Assembly (NCBI RefSeq): GCF_001467955.1
Contig: NZ_LNYR01000022.1
Span: forward strand, 15,632-79,631
Reading direction: 5' to 3'
Source of the DNA: Legionella quateirensis
GTDB taxonomy: Bacteria; Pseudomonadota; Gammaproteobacteria; Legionellales; Legionellaceae
Length of the DNA stretch: 64,000 nucleotides
The position numbers were made by a program, and so were the translations under genes. The notes under the pieces were generated by a model, which was not told the DNA's origin, did not search any database, and saw only the letters and a list, made by a program, of their open reading frames with translations. Shown one piece after another: positions 2,085 through 64,000 of the stretch (position 1 is its first letter; the number at the start of each line of letters is the position of its first letter).

Positions 2085-5000
2085 TCATCTCTTTAATGCT
2101 CTTAGTTTGCCAGGACTGACTGGATCTGGTGGAGCTACTGACCCCTGACTGAACATTGAATGAGAGCTAAGAAGGGTAGAAGTATCGGTCTCTGATGAAG
2201 ACGCGGTGAGTAATAGAGCAGAGCCTGAATCGTGGTTGGGTATGGTGGAATCCACGGTAGTTGGAGTGGTTGTCTGTTTCTTTGCTTGCTCTTGTAGCGA
2301 TTTAAGAAGATGCAAGGATTTAGAACACCTTGCGCGTTTAACCAGATCCAAAATGGTAATGCCATCGCAGTTCTTTACCATTATGGCATCTGCTCTTGCT
2401 GTCTCAGGCAGATAATCCAGAAGCCAATTCAGAGATTGGATTTGTCTTGCTGCGGCAACGTGCAGCAAGGTATTGCCATAAAGGCTCTTTACCATCACGG
2501 CTTCCGCCCTTGCTGCTTTGGGCAGGCAATCCAGAAGCTTTTTCAGGATTTTAGGGTGTTTTGCTGCGGTTAGATGCAGCACTGAGTTTCCATACTTGTT
2601 ACATATCATCAATGCCCCAGCTCTTGTCTCCTCAGACAGTCTATTCACAAGCGGTTTCAAAATCGCAGGACGGGTTGTTTCTACCTCGTGCAGCACTGTA
2701 TTGCCATCTTCGTTAGTTACCATCAAAGCGGCTGCTCTTGCGGCTTTGGGTAGGCAGTCCAGAAGCTGTTTCAGGTATTTGGGGGCATTTTTTGCAATCC
2801 GATGCAATGCGGTATTGCCATCAGCATCGGTTGCCATCAAAACTTCCGCCCTTGCCGTTTTAGGTAAATAGTCCAGAAGCAGTCTTATGGTTTTTGGGCT
2901 ATCTTCCAGGGTATGAAGTACTGTATCCCCTTTGTTGTTTTTCGTCATCAAGACTTCAGCCCTATCCTTCTCGGGCAGCGTTTTCATAAGTAGTTTCAAG
3001 ATTTTCGAGTCATTTCTGGCCAGGTGCATCACGGTATAGCCAATATAATTCTTTGTTATCAGGGCACTTGCTCTTTCTTCTTTCGGCAGGTAGTTCAGAA
3101 GCAGTTTCAAAGTATTGGGATAATCTACGGCAAGGTGCAGCATACTAATGCCACAGTAGTTTTTATCTATCACCACATCAACCCTTTGATGCTCTGGTAA
3201 TGTCTGCAGAAACCATTGAATAAAAGAAAGGTGTTGGTTCTCGATGGCTTCTTGAAGGGGAGGGAAGCGGCCTTTGTATTTCACCCTATAGTTTGCTCCT
3301 TTGTCAATCAGGGCGGCAGCTAATTCTGTATGTCCGAAGGATGCAGCAATATAAAACGGAGTTAAACTTTTGTTGTCGGTAGCATTGGGATCAAAACCCG
3401 GATGAGCAACAATTTGACGAACTATGGCTTCGGGCAAATCGGTAGACAGTGCAATAAGTCCTGCGATTTCCGGGCTAAATTCGGGCGTGATATAGCCGGG
3501 TGTGATCATCACCGGAAAGGGAGTTTCTCCTTCCGGGGCAGGGGCATTCAGGCGTTCAATCTGAGCAAGCAGTGCTTCGGGCCAGGAGTCTCGTGCAAGC
3601 GCATCACCTGCAGAATTCTCCGTCTGATTGCATCGGTTGCGGATGAATTTGAGCAGGATGGGAAGGCACTGTTGAAACAGGAGAGACCAGTTGTCAGCAG
3701 GATAACATAGGGCATGAAGCAGGATGCGGTTTATCTGATAGGGCGTTACTTCCAGTACGCCGTCTTCTTCTGTCCTGGCTATCCATTCGGCAAGCATCGC
3801 ATCCTGTACTCGGATGACAGGATTGCAGTTGTTCCCCTCGGTATTTTCCTTAAAGAACAGGTCACATAGTTTGGTAAAGAGGCTGGCGTAAGTAAAGGCT
3901 CTGTCATCACCACTTGCCGCAAACCAGGTTGCCGTATAAATACTGATGAAGTCATGATAGGCGCTGGTTCGCCATACTCCAAAACCGCGCTCAAAGGTGC
4001 GCAGGCGTTCTTCCATCGTAGCGGTATCTTCAAGCAATGGAGCAAGAGAAAGGTCAGGGTTATGAAGGCATTGACTATGAAAATGAAGCACATTCACCCA
4101 GGCGTCTTTGTTGTCATCCGGCATGTCGCAGACGTCTAGCAGATTTTTATAGTCTTTGTACTGATAAAGCGTATCGTGAAACCTTAAGACTAGGTACAGG
4201 ATACTGAACGGGTCTTTTTCGTTTGCAGAGTTCACAAGCGACTCCGGACTGAAGTCTGCTCCCTGAAGCCAGACGAGTGTGTCGTCAGCAAGCGATCGCA
4301 GACCGGTTGCTGTGATGCTGCCAGAACTTGTGGCCAGAGTCTGGCGTTTGGCATGACTTTCAAGGGCAGCAAGGATGGGGATGAAATTACAGGGGATGGA
4401 TTGTAACCCTATCTTGCTGCAATACCCGTTGATTTTCTGCATCATCAGCTCATCTGGCACTATCCCTATTGTGCGAAAACGCTCAAGCACGTATTCCCGC
4501 GCCGCGTCTGAGCCTCCGGCATTCTTGATGGCATCCCGGACAGTACCCGGCATGGTGCCGTATGCCCAAGGCAAAAACAGGGACTGAAAATGAGCATGAA
4601 ATGTGGCGCGTTCATCGCCCACCGGGTCACGCCCGTCGGGAAGATGGATTTTCTTTTGCTTTCCAAGCACTTCACGCACCATGAAATCGAACAACCCCTG
4701 CATGAGGACATCCTCTGCATTTAAAGGCAGGCGCTTGCCATCATAGCCATCAAGTGCCATGAGCCAGGCATGGCGAATGCCTGTAGCGCAGACGCGCGGT
4801 GTGGCTTTCGCCAGCGCATTGTTGATACGGTCAAATTCCTGAAGGCGCAGCAGCCGCTCTTTTTGGGCGGTACTGCGAGGCGGTACTGGCCATCGCCTTT
4901 CATCCTTATCAATCAGTGCCGAGAGAACGACTGCATAGACCTCGGGAAGTGGCAGGTACCATTCAGTAGAAATCCGATGCCCGTTGTGCTCCTCAACCAG

Positions 5001-5375
5001 GGTGACCCGGTCAAGTTCTCTGCTCAAAGTACGTGAACTCAGCGTTTCTGCCAGCCAGGCTTTAGTAAGCGGTTCCAGCTGAGAAGATTTGACTCGTTCT
5101 TCATACCTCTTTTTGACATGACTCATCCGCTCTTGTGCTTTGTAATTACCGGTAATTTCAATAGTCATCGTTGAGGTGGGTACAACAACTGATGAAGAGG
5201 TTGCAGCAGGAGATGAAGCGGGTTGAGCTGGCGCTTCGATATCAACTTTTTGCAACAGATACCGTGAAGCCAGTCGGATGGCGAGTATGGCCGCTGCATT
5301 CGAGGTCACTGTGTTGTGCGTGCTCTGTGCGTCCTGAGCGCTTTTAATGATTGCCTGCGTGAGGTTGCCTGGCAT
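2085..5375 (-). CDS. Large ankyrin-repeat protein, candidate Dot/Icm effector
   Basis: A 1096-residue protein with three parts. Residues 1-75 are Ala/Ser/Thr-rich and probably disordered. Residues about 80-650 form a helical region I do not recognise. Residues about 660-1020 are ankyrin repeats; from 740 on they become very regular, with a 37-38 residue period marked by LPK-x-x-RA followed by G-N-T-x-LH. The last 60 residues are Ser/Thr-rich and flexible (SSSETDTSTLLSS), as in many Dot/Icm substrates. Ankyrin proteins bind host proteins in Legionella and Coxiella. The first two thirds look more GC-rich than neighbouring genes, suggesting later acquisition. Effector status is inferred; no catalytic motif was seen. 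Confidence 0.75.
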   Translation of the reverse strand: MPGNLTQAIIKSAQDAQSTHNTVTSNAAAILAIRLASRYLLQKVDIEAPAQPASSPAATSSSVVVPTSTMTIEITGNYKAQERMSHVKKRYEERVKSSQLEPLTKAWLAETLSSRTLSRELDRVTLVEEHNGHRISTEWYLPLPEVYAVVLSALIDKDERRWPVPPRSTAQKERLLRLQEFDRINNALAKATPRVCATGIRHAWLMALDGYDGKRLPLNAEDVLMQGLFDFMVREVLGKQKKIHLPDGRDPVGDERATFHAHFQSLFLPWAYGTMPGTVRDAIKNAGGSDAAREYVLERFRTIGIVPDELMMQKINGYCSKIGLQSIPCNFIPILAALESHAKRQTLATSSGSITATGLRSLADDTLVWLQGADFSPESLVNSANEKDPFSILYLVLRFHDTLYQYKDYKNLLDVCDMPDDNKDAWVNVLHFHSQCLHNPDLSLAPLLEDTATMEERLRTFERGFGVWRTSAYHDFISIYTATWFAASGDDRAFTYASLFTKLCDLFFKENTEGNNCNPVIRVQDAMLAEWIARTEEDGVLEVTPYQINRILLHALCYPADNWSLLFQQCLPILLKFIRNRCNQTENSAGDALARDSWPEALLAQIERLNAPAPEGETPFPVMITPGYITPEFSPEIAGLIALSTDLPEAIVRQIVAHPGFDPNATDNKSLTPFYIAASFGHTELAAALIDKGANYRVKYKGRFPPLQEAIENQHLSFIQWFLQTLPEHQRVDVVIDKNYCGISMLHLAVDYPNTLKLLLNYLPKEERASALITKNYIGYTVMHLARNDSKILKLLMKTLPEKDRAEVLMTKNNKGDTVLHTLEDSPKTIRLLLDYLPKTARAEVLMATDADGNTALHRIAKNAPKYLKQLLDCLPKAARAAALMVTNEDGNTVLHEVETTRPAILKPLVNRLSEETRAGALMICNKYGNSVLHLTAAKHPKILKKLLDCLPKAARAEAVMVKSLYGNTLLHVAAARQIQSLNWLLDYLPETARADAIMVKNCDGITILDLVKRARCSKSLHLLKSLQEQAKKQTTTPTTVDSTIPNHDSGSALLLTASSSETDTSTLLSSHSMFSQGSVAPPDPVSPGKLRALKR

Positions 5376-58452: not shown

Positions 58453-58572
58453 AATCCCTGTTTTATTAACGATTCAAAAATCAATTTATTTATTTGTATA
58501 AGTGATTTTAATGACAGGAACTTGCAAATGAAAGTAAACACAACTATAATTTCATTTGAAAGGAGGTGTGAA

Positions 58573-58947
58573 ATGAAAACTTCAAATAATATGCTTCATC
58601 AAGAAGAAACTGTTTTGACTAAAGCTGTAAGCAACTTGGCAAAATTTTATTCTTTAACTGGAAAGGATTTAAGTAAAATAATTGGTATAAGCGAATCTAG
58701 TGCCTCCCGTATTAGTCAAGGGACTAAATTAATTTCACCTTATACTAAGGAGGGTGAAATAGCTTTATTGCTGTTGAGAGTATACCGAAGTCTAAATGCA
58801 ATGGTTGGAAATAATCATGAAAAGGCTAAATTATGGCTGAATAGTCAGAATAAATACTTTAGAAATACACCAATTGAGGAAATGAAAACTATTCCAGGTT
58901 TAATTAATGTACTTAATTATCTAGATGCAATGCGCGGAAAACTATGA
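58573..58947 (+). CDS. Xre/MbcA/ParS-type antitoxin
   Basis: A 124-residue antitoxin paired with the RES toxin that follows. The N-terminal half is a helix-turn-helix (LTGKDLSKIIGISESSASRI), and the C-terminal half is the toxin-binding region (KAKLWLNSQNKYFRNTPIEE, then MKTIPGLINVLNYLDAM). An excellent Shine-Dalgarno, AAAGGAGGTG, 4-5 nt before the ATG fixes the start; the frame is open further upstream but without an RBS. Antitoxins of this family repress their own operon. The stop overlaps the toxin start (ATGA). Confidence 0.88.
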   Translation: MKTSNNMLHQEETVLTKAVSNLAKFYSLTGKDLSKIIGISESSASRISQGTKLISPYTKEGEIALLLLRVYRSLNAMVGNNHEKAKLWLNSQNKYFRNTPIEEMKTIPGLINVLNYLDAMRGKL

Positions 58948-59666
58948 GTATATGGACTGAATCTGAAGGAATAAAATTAGTTAAAAGTCTTAATTTGGAA
59001 CCATGGAGGATGATTGAGTCTCAATATATTTCAAGTTCTCGAGACTTGGTCGAAAGTAGAGAAGAGCACGATCTCTTGGAAGAGTTGCTAGAGAATTCAA
59101 AGCCGGGAATAGCAAATAATAAGCACTATTTAATCTATACTCCTTTCAGATATCCACCACTTAAGTATGGTTCTAGATTTGGTAATACTTATGAACAATC
59201 TCTTTGGTATGGATCTATAAATCTCCTTACGGCATTAGCAGAAGTTGCCTTTTACCGTCTAAAATTTTTTGCTGATACTTCAGCAGATCTCGAGTATGTT
59301 GAAATTCCAATGACAGCTTTTAAAGCATATATACAAACAGAACATGGTATTGATCTAACAGCACCTCATTTTAAAAAATATCAAGATAAAATATCTAATA
59401 AAACAAGTTATGCGGAGAGTCAGAAGCTGGGTGCAGAGATGAGGGATGCAAATATAGAGGCTTTTATTTTTACTTCAGCAAGAGATAAGGCGTTTGGAAA
59501 AAATGTGGCTGCATTTACCCCTGATGTATTTAAGATGAAGGATAATCAATATATAACAGGTATGCAAAATTGGCGTTGTATTGCGAACCAAAATATTATT
59601 GAATTTACTCGAGATGAAATTCTGTGTAGAAAACATCACGAATTTTTTAAAGAAGAATTTGAATGA
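58944..59666 (+). CDS. RES-domain toxin (NAD+-degrading type)
   Basis: A 240-residue RES-family toxin; characterised relatives (MbcT and other RES toxins) deplete NAD+. The R, E and S that name the family are visible: R22 in PWRM and R78 in YGSRFG, E100 in TALAEVAFYR, and S178 in FTSARD. It is longer than the minimal ~150-residue RES proteins, with an extra N-terminal ~55 residues. All expected active-site residues are present, so it looks intact. It is coupled to the antitoxin by a 4-nt overlap. Confidence 0.88.
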   Translation: MSIWTESEGIKLVKSLNLEPWRMIESQYISSSRDLVESREEHDLLEELLENSKPGIANNKHYLIYTPFRYPPLKYGSRFGNTYEQSLWYGSINLLTALAEVAFYRLKFFADTSADLEYVEIPMTAFKAYIQTEHGIDLTAPHFKKYQDKISNKTSYAESQKLGAEMRDANIEAFIFTSARDKAFGKNVAAFTPDVFKMKDNQYITGMQNWRCIANQNIIEFTRDEILCRKHHEFFKEEFE

Positions 59667-60306: not shown

Positions 60307-61575
60307 CTAACTGCTCATAGTCAGTGCAGATGGTTCAGGGCTTTCGGAACTGCTTGATAGTTCCATCATCTCAGGACTTAATTTTAATTTTAATTGTTCA
60401 AGAACTTCCAACGGAAGTTGAATTCCTTTATCGGGAATTGCAAATTGTTGACCATTGATATACAGGCTACCATCCTTCATTACAACGGATTGCATCTCAG
60501 GGTGATGTTCTAAAGCAGCATCTGATTCTGGAAGGAATTTTATTTCCATTCCGCTTATCATGTTCGCTCCGTCTTTAATACGAATACCGGTTGTGGTATT
60601 GGGAATGTCAGAATAGTACCCTCCAATTACCGCACAGGCCTTCCAAAGCAAGTTATAAGCGGCGTCTAAGGGTAAACCTACTCCCATTCCAACTCCTTGA
60701 CCCACTATCCCCATTGCTGTACTCAGTATATGAGCCATACTGATGCTACAAAACGTAGTGATTAATTTACATGCGATAACTTGAGAAAATAATGCAACCC
60801 CCATAGGCCCAGCTGAACCAATCATCAGTAATGAGCTGCCGATAAGAGCAGTGAGTTGAAATTTTAAAGGGATGACCTGTACTGAGTCGCTGACCATTTG
60901 GCCGCCCATACATCCCAATGTTGCGCCAGTATAGGCGAAGGCTGCACCAAACATGGGTTGAGTGATTGAGGTTACCGGGTAATTTTTATAGGGATTATCA
61001 GCGCCGGATTTTTTGCATGTTTTGCTAAGGAACGTGGAAAATTTGTTCCACTCTTCGTCTGAAAATGGCTCCATTCCTGCTTTTTTAAGGGCTATATTCG
61101 CATGGCTAAGTGCCATTAATGATGAATTAATAAAGGTATTGGCTGCCATAAAACAGATTAATTTGTCATCCTCTTCAAAATAGTTTTCCGCGTTGATGCC
61201 TAAATCTCGATTGATTAAATTAAACAAAGCGGAATTTTTCTTGGGCGATGATATTTGCGTTTGAACGTACAGACAGGTGGCAAGCATGATTCTGGAAGCA
61301 ATAAAATGTGCTTCTAACTGACCAGCCCATTGTTCTACATTTTGCATCATGGCTTGAACTTGGTCATCATTAAGCAAATTGGATGAAAAAACAACAAGCA
61401 TTTTTTTTATAAATTTTGTCTGAGCATCACGCGCTACTACATCTGTTCCTCCCAATAGGATGGGGGTGCCAAACATTGATGGTGATTTATCCAGGTCGAC
61501 TTTTCGTTCCTTCTGATAATCATCGCGCAAAAAATTGATACTTGTAAATGCACCGGGTGGTAAAATATAACGCAT
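60307..61575 (-). CDS. Orphan protein with hydrophobic core and E/S-rich tail, candidate effector
   Basis: A 422-residue protein; the ATG at 61575 (MRYILPPG) is preferred because GAGGT lies 7 nt before it, over an ATG four codons earlier. Residues 1-190 are soluble. About 200-325 is a Gly/Ala/Met-rich hydrophobic region (FAYTGATLGCMGGQMV; SAMGIVG-like AMGIVGQGVGMGVGLP) that could form helical hairpins. The last 25 residues (SPEMMELSSSSESPEPSALT) combine Glu with a Ser-rich end, as in Dot/Icm signals. No family recognised. It is isolated, flanked by non-coding DNA on both sides. Confidence 0.65.
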   Translation of the reverse strand: MRYILPPGAFTSINFLRDDYQKERKVDLDKSPSMFGTPILLGGTDVVARDAQTKFIKKMLVVFSSNLLNDDQVQAMMQNVEQWAGQLEAHFIASRIMLATCLYVQTQISSPKKNSALFNLINRDLGINAENYFEEDDKLICFMAANTFINSSLMALSHANIALKKAGMEPFSDEEWNKFSTFLSKTCKKSGADNPYKNYPVTSITQPMFGAAFAYTGATLGCMGGQMVSDSVQVIPLKFQLTALIGSSLLMIGSAGPMGVALFSQVIACKLITTFCSISMAHILSTAMGIVGQGVGMGVGLPLDAAYNLLWKACAVIGGYYSDIPNTTTGIRIKDGANMISGMEIKFLPESDAALEHHPEMQSVVMKDGSLYINGQQFAIPDKGIQLPLEVLEQLKLKLSPEMMELSSSSESPEPSALTMSS

Positions 61576-61931
61576 AATAAACCTCATATCCTTTGAAGAA
61601 TTTCCTTATGTGTTTTTTATATTACTTATTCATTGGTTAAATGCAATCATATTTGATTATTTTTTACTAAATAAATTCATAAATTTAAATCAATTATTTT
61701 TATTTCTATTTTAACTTATTGAAATGATGATTTTTTTGAGGATTATGGTACTTTTAGCAGAAGGTTTCATCTTAATAGTGTCGAACAGTACAATAGACCT
61801 CTTCGGAACCTCTTTGTAGGGTGAGGTCTAATGATGCCCATGTCCTGTGGCCTGCTATATAAATCATTTCATTTGTTTGTTGATTGAAAGAATTGATTTA
61901 AGTTGTTTTAAATAGTTTTGGGAAGATTATT
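61576..61931. other. Gene-free divergent intergenic region, AT-rich
   Basis: It holds the promoters of the orphan gene (left) and the UbiA-like gene (right). The first ~150 bp are extremely AT-rich. A hairpin TAGACCTC ... GAGGTCTA lies at 61794-61830; its CAATAGACCTCTT start recurs at 24650, so it is probably part of a dispersed repeat. No reliable promoter could be picked by eye. Confidence 0.5.
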
Positions 61932-62816
61932 ATGATCGAATTGGTGAATAACTCCGACAAGGTACGTTACATGGGTAGGTTAATTAATTTCTTTTTACTT
62001 TTGCGAGTTTCGCATTGGAGTAAATCTGTATTTGTGATGTTGGGTTTTTTCTATACTCCGGTTCCAGGATATCTGGTTCCTGCGCTGTTGGCCTCATTAG
62101 CGTTCTGTCTTATTTCCAGCGCAGTATATATTTATAATGATATTCAGGATAGGGATGAAGACAGTCTGCACCCTTATAAGTGCCATAGACCTTTAGCCAG
62201 CGATCAAATCACAGTATCCGATGCGATTTTTATGCTGTTTTTGTTGTTAGTAACCGGCCTTGTGCTTGGCGTACTGATCTCGAAACAGTTGGCTATTATT
62301 CTAACCATATACTTGTTGATTAATTTGGCTTATAACCATGTGTTAAAGTTAATTCCGATACTGGATGTTACCTGCATAGCTATGGGGTTTATGCTGCGTG
62401 TTCTGGCTGGAACTGTTGGCATAGGGGTTGCTATTTCTGGTTGGTTGATAGTAGCCGCAACCTTGCTTAGTTTATTTATCGCATTAAACAAGCGCCAATT
62501 GGAAATGCATTTGGGATTAAAAAATTCTACCCGGACAGTACTGAGAAAATATAACCCGGATCTGTTACAGCAACTCATAGTGGGAACTGGATTAGCCTGT
62601 TTTGTTACTTATTTGTTTTATACTGTATACGCACGAGGAGAGTCATTTTTCTTCATATTAACCTTGCCATTTGCTGCGATTGCTCTATGGCGCTTCGCCT
62701 GGCTATCCAATCAGAATGTCGAAAATGATGATCCTGTTAATGTATTTCTTGGTGATCGATTATCCCGATTAAATCTGTATTGTTTTGTCATTCTTACGTT
62801 TATGGCATTGACTTGA
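61932..62816 (+). CDS. UbiA-family prenyltransferase, decaprenyl-phosphate phosphoribosyltransferase-like
   Basis: A 294-residue membrane protein with about eight helices. The first Asp-rich motif is YIYNDIQDRDEDSLHPYKCH (N69-D73, D77) followed by RPLAS, close to the ND-x-x-D-x-x-x-D-x-x-HP-x-K-x-RP-I/L-A signature of phosphoribosyl transfer to decaprenyl phosphate in mycobacteria (Rv3806c type), rather than of ubiquinone-biosynthesis UbiA. The second motif appears as ALNKRQLEMHLG near 186. It would make a polyprenyl-phosphate-linked ribose 5-phosphate, precursor of lipid-linked arabinose. It overlaps the next gene (TGATG). Family is clear; substrate is inferred. Confidence 0.75.
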   Translation: MIELVNNSDKVRYMGRLINFFLLLRVSHWSKSVFVMLGFFYTPVPGYLVPALLASLAFCLISSAVYIYNDIQDRDEDSLHPYKCHRPLASDQITVSDAIFMLFLLLVTGLVLGVLISKQLAIILTIYLLINLAYNHVLKLIPILDVTCIAMGFMLRVLAGTVGIGVAISGWLIVAATLLSLFIALNKRQLEMHLGLKNSTRTVLRKYNPDLLQQLIVGTGLACFVTYLFYTVYARGESFFFILTLPFAAIALWRFAWLSNQNVENDDPVNVFLGDRLSRLNLYCFVILTFMALT

Positions 62817-64000
62817 TGAGATCGAGTTTACGTTGGTATGACGCTATTTTTGTTTTAGTATTTTTTTATCTGTTAGTTTTGCAAGTTCAGGCAATTTGGC
62901 CGTTTACAATTGATGATATGTACATTTCCTTACGCTATGCGAGAAATTGGGCGTCAGGAGATGGCTTGTTATGGAATCTTGATTCACCACCAGTCGAGGG
63001 ATATTCCAATTTTAGTTTCGTTGCATTGGGAGCATTGTCCTTAGTATTTAATGGAAATCCGATTGTTACTTTAAAAACGGCAGGTTTTATTGGCTTGGTG
63101 GTTACTTGTTGTTTTCTTTTTTTGATAAGCCGTTTTTGGTTTACAAAACGTGAATCTCTGATTCCTTGCATTATTTTATTATTATACAAAGGACAAATCA
63201 TCTGGGCAGTTAGTGGGTTTGAGACTACTGTCTATCAAGCTTTAATCTGTGGTTCTGTATATTTTATTTTTCGGGGACAAGGATATGATTTATATCCAGG
63301 AGGACGGGGTGAGTTCCGATACTTCAATTTTTTTATTGCGGGTATGTTACTTGCCCTGGCTGGAATGACGCGACCTGAAGCACCTGCTTTCATGATACTG
63401 TTTTTTATTTTAATATGCTGGGATAAGCCGAAATCCAGCCTAAACCGCTACAGGAAGGAGTTACTGTATTATTTTGTTCCTCTAGTGTTGTTTTATCTGC
63501 CTTATTTTCTCTGGCGATGGCATTATTATGGATATTTGTTTCCTAACTCAGTTTATTGCAAAGGGTTTACTGCGGCATTTTTATATGAGCTGGATCTCAA
63601 CTACCTGAAACTCATTTGGCCATTTGTTATTTTAGCTCTTCTTGCCTTTATAAAGGATTGGGATAAGCGTTACTTCTTTTTATGCTTGCCGAGTTTCGCT
63701 TATCTCATCATGTTACGAGATGCAGATCCCATCGTTGCTTTTGATAATCGCCTTTTTTTACCCGCATTTGCACTGTTAATACCCCTTGCATTGAAAGGTC
63801 TTGACCAACTTAATTTGTTTTTATGTAAAAAAAAGGAACCCCTTACATTATCCGCCTTCTACCTTGTACTATTTGTTGTGCTTGCTTCGTTTATGCCCTG
63901 GATGACTCTTGCTCAATATCGATACTTTAGCGAGAATCCTGTCCGAGGCGAGCAATTAAGAATGTCTGTTATTCAGTGGTTGAATGCTAATGCCAGGATT
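62816..64000 (+). CDS. GT-C membrane glycosyltransferase, AftB-like (3' end outside window)
   Basis: Partial: 395 codons from an ATG overlapping the UbiA-like stop, still open at the window edge. A multi-pass membrane protein with a first-loop acidic motif IDDMYISLRYARNWASGDG (D33, D34), then PPVEGYSNF, then MTRPEAP near 185. This pattern (DD ... LRYARN ... G-x-G ... EGYSN ... TRPE) is that of GT-C enzymes using polyprenyl-phosphate sugars, notably the arabinofuranosyltransferase AftB group. The overlap with a DPPR-synthase-like gene supports a pentose donor. Acceptor unknown. Confidence 0.7.
   Translation, partial: MRSSLRWYDAIFVLVFFYLLVLQVQAIWPFTIDDMYISLRYARNWASGDGLLWNLDSPPVEGYSNFSFVALGALSLVFNGNPIVTLKTAGFIGLVVTCCFLFLISRFWFTKRESLIPCIILLLYKGQIIWAVSGFETTVYQALICGSVYFIFRGQGYDLYPGGRGEFRYFNFFIAGMLLALAGMTRPEAPAFMILFFILICWDKPKSSLNRYRKELLYYFVPLVLFYLPYFLWRWHYYGYLFPNSVYCKGFTAAFLYELDLNYLKLIWPFVILALLAFIKDWDKRYFFLCLPSFAYLIMLRDADPIVAFDNRLFLPAFALLIPLALKGLDQLNLFLCKKKEPLTLSAFYLVLFVVLASFMPWMTLAQYRYFSENPVRGEQLRMSVIQWLNANARI

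Follow-up and report, generated by a model that had tools for sequence, protein, structure and literature searches.

A candidate pathway for lipid-linked arabinofuranose in Legionella: a phosphoribosyltransferase gene that overlaps an AftB-like GT-C gene in Legionella quateirensis

Does a Gram-negative intracellular bacterium make a lipid-linked pentose and transfer it, as mycobacteria do? This question is raised by the end of a 64,000-nucleotide stretch of the Legionella quateirensis genome (assembly GCF_001467955.1, contig NZ_LNYR01000022.1, positions 15,632 to 79,631; hereafter the window), where the list of open reading frames (ORFs) places two plus-strand genes in the last 2 kb. The first gene (61932..62816) is predicted by Pfam and NCBIfam to encode a polyprenyl-phosphate phosphoribosyltransferase (PPPRS, or DPPR synthase) of the UbiA superfamily with 294 amino acids. 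The second (62816..64000) holds the first 395 of 503 codons of a predicted AftB-like GT-C pentosyltransferase, assigned by profile and fold, and the full gene of 503 amino acids (L004:4448-5959) runs beyond the window end. The likeliest start of the GT-C gene, ATG 62816, has one base in common with the TGA stop of the PPPRS gene (TGATG), and the overlap given in a preliminary description of this DNA is thus a single base. Judged from sequence, the first protein has the family and the active site of a PPPRS, the second has the GT-C fold and kinship with AftB, and a DprE1-like gene accompanies them widely. We suggest, with a probability of roughly 0.7, that polyprenyl-phosphate-arabinofuranose is made and transferred by these genes.

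In the pathway that we propose, the two window genes would be the first and last steps of lipid-linked pentofuranose transfer. The UbiA-fold PPPRS would move 5-phosphoribose from phosphoribosyl pyrophosphate (PRPP) to polyprenyl phosphate, probably undecaprenyl phosphate, and a phosphatase would remove the 5'-phosphate. An unlinked DprE1-DprE2-like pair would then epimerise C2 to give polyprenyl-phosphate-D-arabinofuranose, which a flippase would turn outward. Finally, the AftB-like GT-C enzyme, whose gene is translated beside that of PPPRS, would move the sugar to a glycan or protein in the periplasm, with D34 in the DD motif acting in catalysis. We infer the lipid, the sugar, the order of the steps and the periplasmic site of transfer.

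When we searched Pfam and NCBIfam with the PPPRS protein, it matched the UbiA superfamily (PF01040, E 4.4e-24), and its best NCBIfam model by far was decaprenyl-phosphate phosphoribosyltransferase (NF008977), at a score far beyond chance (413.9 bits; cut-off 234). Alignment to Rv3806c locates the PRPP/Mg motif N69-D-x-x-D73 ... H80-P-x-K83-x-x-R86-P87 at 62136..62192 on the plus strand. Here N69, D73, K83 and R86, which are unchanged in all 21 aligned relatives, correspond to N73, D77, K87 and R90 of Rv3806c. The DPPR-synthase motif named in the preliminary description is supported by the NF008977 match and by the PRPP site, but its spacing has to be corrected, as HP-x-K-x-x-R-P has one residue more than the HP-x-K-x-RP given there. 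PMC10994848 names the residues of the Rv3806c PRPP site, and nine of these 12 are identical in PPPRS (R22, K28, Y70, N73, D77, K87, R90, Y138 and K143 of Rv3806c; R25, K31, Y66, N69, D73, K83, R86, Y134 and K139 of PPPRS). Of the others, Q135 is replaced by N131 and Y157 by F153, and K208 is not kept. The fold of PPPRS is also closest to that of Rv3806c. The nearest named records are from L. bononiensis (99%), L. moravica (94%) and L. worsleiensis (87%), in a search that may leave out the window's own record. At family level, we regard the predicted PPPRS identity as highly probable.

The epimerases were found on another contig. An early impression that the genome has no DprE1, for which the Pfam ALO model had returned nothing, was overturned by a profile of six DprE1 sequences from accessory loci of Legionellaceae. 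This profile, which did not contain the protein of the genome itself, detected a near full-length relative on contig C12 (E 6.5e-89, positions 31-431 of 434). The DprE1-like gene (L146:9181-10470) is the first of an overlapping gene pair, and the PDB proteins closest to its product are nine DprE1 sequences (E 7.4e-46 to 2.2e-40), followed by the next match at E 3e-4. The second gene (L146:10467-11189) encodes a short-chain dehydrogenase/reductase (SDR), which we call DprE2-like because of its position, since such a gene adjoins the DprE1-like gene in all 10 loci compared (eight of its own kind and two of a closer accessory kind). When we grouped the loci by identity to the window PPPRS, taking those below 36% as accessory and those above 38% as core-type, PPPRS relatives were found in one stretch with DprE1- and DprE2-like genes at six of eight accessory loci (L111-L113 and L132-L134; not L114 and L123). 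In five of these six, the PPPRS relative and both epimerase genes form a run of adjacent genes; the DprE2-like gene of L132 lies some 6 kb away. Three of the accessory loci, L111 (7303-10817), L112 and L113, belong to Legionella genomes and combine a HAD-UbiA fusion gene (NF006088; L111, 674.6 bits) with DprE1- and DprE2-like genes, an arrangement like that of Citrobacter ORF15. As a separate observation, the DprE1-like protein of L146 has Ala at the Cys of the mycobacterial DprE1 sequence GWNICVDF, which we take to be the target of benzothiazinones.

The kinship of the GT-C protein with AftB was visible by profile. The protein itself had no Pfam or NCBIfam match, a Pfam search of 23 relatives gave a single chance domain of unknown function (E 0.97), and an NCBIfam search of two paralogues gave one chance permease match (E 4.9e-4) for one and nothing for the other. 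Likewise, a single-sequence phmmer search found no AftB and only a chance match (E 0.53). When we used profile A1 of the GT-C protein, AftB was the sole PDB match at E up to 1 (E 0.0091), and the wider profile A6, with 16 relatives, placed AftB (9dlf) first at E 1.1e-8, the next matches being antibodies (E 0.28 and 0.68). Profiles A1 and A3 include members from some of the genomes later searched. By these comparisons, AftB is the only credible solved sequence relative of the protein. The copy of L. bononiensis has a GT-C fold and aligns structurally with AftB at 13-14% identity, although fold comparison alone does not set AftB apart from other GT-C enzymes. D62, E172 and R221 of AftB correspond to D34, E136 and R186 of the GT-C protein, which are invariant in 23 of 23 relatives and in 16 of 16 wider relatives. 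By alignment and conservation, the DD motif D33-D34 (62912..62917, plus strand) places D34 at the catalytic D62 of AftB, and R186 (63371..63373, plus strand) falls at R221, the donor-phosphate ligand. A further essential residue of AftB, R372, lies beyond the aligned stretch, and the invariant R312 of the GT-C protein is a candidate counterpart. The AftB pattern read earlier from this gene is thus upheld by the sequence profile and by the essential residues D62 and R221. A second AftB-like GT-C gene (L159:9059-10642; also L160-L163), whose product is 29-33% identical, adjoins icmX-icmW end to end, close to icmV-dotA, at five of five loci, the Icm/Dot names resting on NCBIfam for L159 and on clustering for L160-L163. 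Its 150-amino-acid neighbours, considered as a type IV pilin, were IcmW and IcmV.

We then compared 44 loci of the genus besides that of the window, chosen by their PPPRS. In L. quateirensis, a CapD/WbpM-like nucleotide-sugar dehydratase of 622 amino acids follows 65 bases after the GT-C gene (PF02719, 384.9 bits). PPPRS was full length at all 44 loci, the dehydratase at 39 and the GT-C enzyme at 35. At each of the 33 three-gene loci, the GT-C protein was less like that of the window than were both of its neighbours, with a median identity of 60.6% against 73.2% and 75.6% (each median over its own loci). Among 16 core-type loci from the other genera of the family, the GT-C gene stood beside PPPRS at 12, and the dehydratase was nearby at 14.

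PPPRS exceeded the NF008977 cut-off throughout the genus (45 of 45 genomes), which includes a genome of about 2 Mb. Across 140 genomes of the order, PPPRS was found in 105 with the window protein as query (E 1e-20), all of the listed genomes belonging to one family, and DprE1 was found in 105 at E 1e-40. Both were present in 102 genomes and neither in 32, and 102 of the 108 genomes with either gene have both (Fisher p 1e-24, kinship ignored). PPPRS alone was found in G012, G027 and G050, and DprE1 alone in G074, G116 and G120; G012, which had no DprE1 match, is 81% complete. For PPPRS and DprE1, core copies are counted together with accessory ones, and the GT-C count takes in paralogues as well as split or partial genes. 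The co-occurrence sets were compiled by hand from the listed matches, the unlisted genomes being those with no match (15 for PPPRS, 15 for DprE1 and 34 for GT-C). In the class, 18 of 369 genomes passed the NF008977 cut-off (three of them Legionellaceae) and 64 reached E 1e-40; this model may detect Legionella-like proteins more readily than other branches of PPPRS. The GT-C profile reached E 1e-15 in five of the 369, again three of them Legionellaceae. One genome outside the family, G154, has both a GT-C relative and a PPPRS match, the latter elsewhere than the fetched GT-C stretch; the stretches fetched around the GT-C relatives of G154 and G146 gave no blast match to PPPRS or DprE queries. 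By these counts, the trait belongs to the core of the genus, is shared by many members of the family and occurs sporadically beyond it. Since PPPRS occurs in every genome of the genus but only sporadically in the class, this genus of intracellular bacteria is likely to produce a lipid-linked pentose that is destined for a molecule of which we found no description. The whole of these observations suggests that Legionella puts a lipid-linked arabinose-type sugar on some surface molecule.

Several observations weigh against the arabinofuranose pathway. First, the epimerase assignments fall short of the equivalog cut-offs. The best NCBIfam model of the DprE1-like protein is DprE1 itself (NF053785), but the score of 241.8 bits does not reach the cut-off of 500, which is why we use the label DprE1-like. 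For the DprE2-like protein, a general SDR model ranks first (NF005489, 144.7 bits; cut-off 267, not reached), followed by DprE2 (NF053786) at 63.4 bits, below its cut-off of 250, and the best PDB matches of the protein are general SDRs in a mixed list that includes DprE2 at E 3.7e-6. In G016, one stop codon interrupts the DprE1 match. Second, the set is incomplete in some genomes. At seven of the 44 loci, whose PPPRS is always full length, the GT-C gene is missing, split or present only as a C-terminal remnant, and among the 102 genomes that have both PPPRS and DprE1, 18 have no GT-C gene of this kind. In G027, PPPRS and the dehydratase are kept, but DprE1 and GT-C are both absent. Beyond the family, a distant GT-C relative occurs in G146, which has no PPPRS match at E 1e-40. 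Third, partners were missing at the locus. None of the four PAP2 matches in the genome, in a search that did not extend to HAD phosphatases, is a linked 5'-phosphatase, since none lies on the window's contig. Reading of the 19 kb of L004 revealed no MATE gene as a linked flippase, a genome-wide MATE search not having been made. Finally, to our knowledge, the structures of Legionella lipopolysaccharide contain no pentofuranose.

As for the GT-C losses, the C-terminal remnant is found in G001, G004, G011 and G017, the split into two ORFs in G021, and no trace in G026 and G027. Three of the four remnant genomes (G001, G004 and G017) have a GT-C paralogue of 46-47% identity elsewhere. Two of the nine loci with no full GT-C gene (L077 and L078) stop at a contig edge; in G038, the genome of L078, a search of the whole genome found no GT-C gene. 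The GT-C gene is the labile part of the set. Since it is lost while PPPRS, and in some cases DprE1, is kept, some species may use the donor for other enzymes, or their pathway may be decaying.

The alternative that survives best, although we consider it unlikely, is that the donor remains polyprenyl-phosphate-ribofuranose as in Citrobacter O1, that the GT-C enzyme adds ribose, and that the DprE1/DprE2-like pair serves something else. Such a reading would suit the layout, in which PPPRS adjoins the GT-C gene and the DprE pair is unlinked, as well as the sub-threshold scores of that pair and the three genomes with PPPRS and no DprE1 match (G012, at 81% completeness, G027 and G050); ribose-only systems are moreover documented in PMC11127046. 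It is opposed by the joint presence of PPPRS and DprE1 in 102 of the 108 genomes with either, by the six of eight accessory loci that combine PPPRS relatives with DprE1/DprE2-like genes, and by the sugar of AftB itself, which is arabinose. A second alternative appears still less probable, namely that the GT-C enzyme transfers a different lipid-linked sugar, such as one that the neighbouring dehydratase helps to make, and lies beside PPPRS by chance. AftB alone was credibly matched by sequence, its D62 and R221 are kept, and the GT-C gene overlaps that of PPPRS; furthermore, of the 86 genomes of the order with GT-C (E 1e-30), 85 have PPPRS and 84 have both PPPRS and DprE1. We reject as highly improbable the reading of the first protein as a conventional prenyltransferase for quinones, heme or lipids. 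What it has in common with these enzymes is the superfamily fold, whereas it scores 27.5 bits against ubiA_proteo and 24.2 against heme O synthase (cyoE) compared with 413.9 for NF008977, two other UbiA-superfamily genes in the genome have far better UbiA scores, the PRPP-site residues are present, and in the tree it groups with Rv3806c, apart from the genome's own UbiA/CyoE and in line with the preliminary description (support 97/97, with a long-branch warning from the tree tool).

Returning to the arabinofuranose pathway, we looked for its remaining partners. The earlier proposal to search for epimerases and a phosphatase succeeded in its first half, with the DprE1/DprE2-like pair, while no phosphatase could be pinned down among the four PAP2 matches, and PPPRS had no HAD domain match in Pfam or NCBIfam. 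The genome contains two GtrA-like matches. One of them (G000:C34:55637-55978, in L192) was rejected as the flippase, being a stand-alone gene that overlaps a GT2 gene read as GtrB-like, of the hexose type; the GtrA-GT2 pair is probably a separate lipid-linked hexose system. No gene at the locus points to the acceptor, and the conserved dehydratase hints, by its family, at a glycan containing a 6-deoxy-amino sugar.

Upstream of the PPPRS gene lies a divergent intergenic region (61588..61931), in which GGGAAG ends 6 bases before ATG 61932. The divergent gene beyond it (60307-61587, minus strand) is weakly similar to Dot/Icm substrates, with a PF16848 score of 22.5 bits that does not reach the cut-off of 25. 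It is found near PPPRS at 40 of the 44 genus loci and is fast evolving, with a median identity of 43.5%. Promoter- and terminator-like sites in L004:3150-8100 were discarded, as they showed no excess over shuffles (for the promoter-like sites, seven found against 16.8 expected), and the window had no Rfam match at the gathering score. Elsewhere in the window, an overlapping pair at 58522-59666 encodes an Xre/MbcA/ParS-type antitoxin and a RES-domain toxin, and the minus-strand gene at 2085-5375 encodes an ankyrin-repeat protein of 1096 amino acids. Ankyrin-repeat proteins are frequent among Legionella effectors.

If correct, the pathway would mean that Legionella has a further surface glycan and that AftB-type chemistry also occurs beyond Actinobacteria, and it would provide a GT-C family for which Pfam so far has no model. 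A broader proposal, which we put forward tentatively and with the odds somewhat against it as a whole, is that arabinofuranosylation from polyprenyl-phosphate-arabinose is a near-universal core trait of Legionella, widespread in Legionellaceae, and that it corresponds, across a whole Gram-negative lineage, to the arabinan machinery of mycobacteria. Its acceptor would be a conserved envelope glycoconjugate, the AftB-like enzyme would be a retaining one whose fast evolution tracks a changing acceptor, and paralogues would have been recruited elsewhere, including beside Dot/Icm genes. Such pathways in Gram-negative bacteria were described in 2024 (PMC11127046), in a paper that presents the combination of PPPRS, a flippase and a GT-C enzyme as widespread, joined by DprE1/E2 homologues in the cases with arabinofuranose. 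The main text of that paper does not contain the word Legionella, and we found no report of this pathway in Legionella in the open-access literature. At least three papers (PMC10248350, PMC8766476 and PMC9045290) mention Legionella, DprE1 and benzothiazinone together. Since the kind of pathway has already been described and no report of the Legionella case was found, we regard the latter as a variant of a known pathway rather than a new kind. What is new is the near-universality in an intracellular genus, the split layout and an AftB-like GT-C family absent from Pfam.

Compared with the mycobacterial decaprenyl-phosphate-arabinose pathway (Rv3806c, DprE1/DprE2 and AftB), the Legionella set is alike in a PPPRS with the PRPP site, in a DprE1-DprE2-like pair, and in a GT-C enzyme with the DD motif and the SGxE and RPE elements of AftB. 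On the other hand, its PPPRS stands beside the GT-C gene and not beside DprE1/E2, the GT-C enzyme has 503 amino acids and shares 13-14% identity with AftB, the Ala described above is aligned with the Cys of DprE1, and no counterpart of Rv3807c or Rv3789 was identified. We know of no arabinogalactan in Legionella. Some Pseudomonas arabinosylate their pilin, reportedly by an enzyme named TfpW; no pilin gene was recognised at the Legionella locus. The likeness here is that a Gram-negative PPPRS is proposed to start a polyprenyl-phosphate-arabinose donor, as stated in PMC11127046. The same paper gives the three-component pentofuranose systems of Citrobacter youngae O1/O2 as PPPRS ORF15, MATE ORF14 and GT136 ORF12. 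Legionella resembles these systems in combining PPPRS with a GT-C enzyme for presumed periplasmic transfer, in which epimerases would decide the sugar, and in having PPPRS and GT-C in one cluster, with a full-length GT-C gene at 35 of the 44 genus loci. In contrast to Citrobacter, the Legionella PPPRS has no HAD phosphatase domain and no MATE gene was recognised beside it, while its GT-C enzyme is of the AftB type and the set is kept across the genus rather than being serotype-specific.
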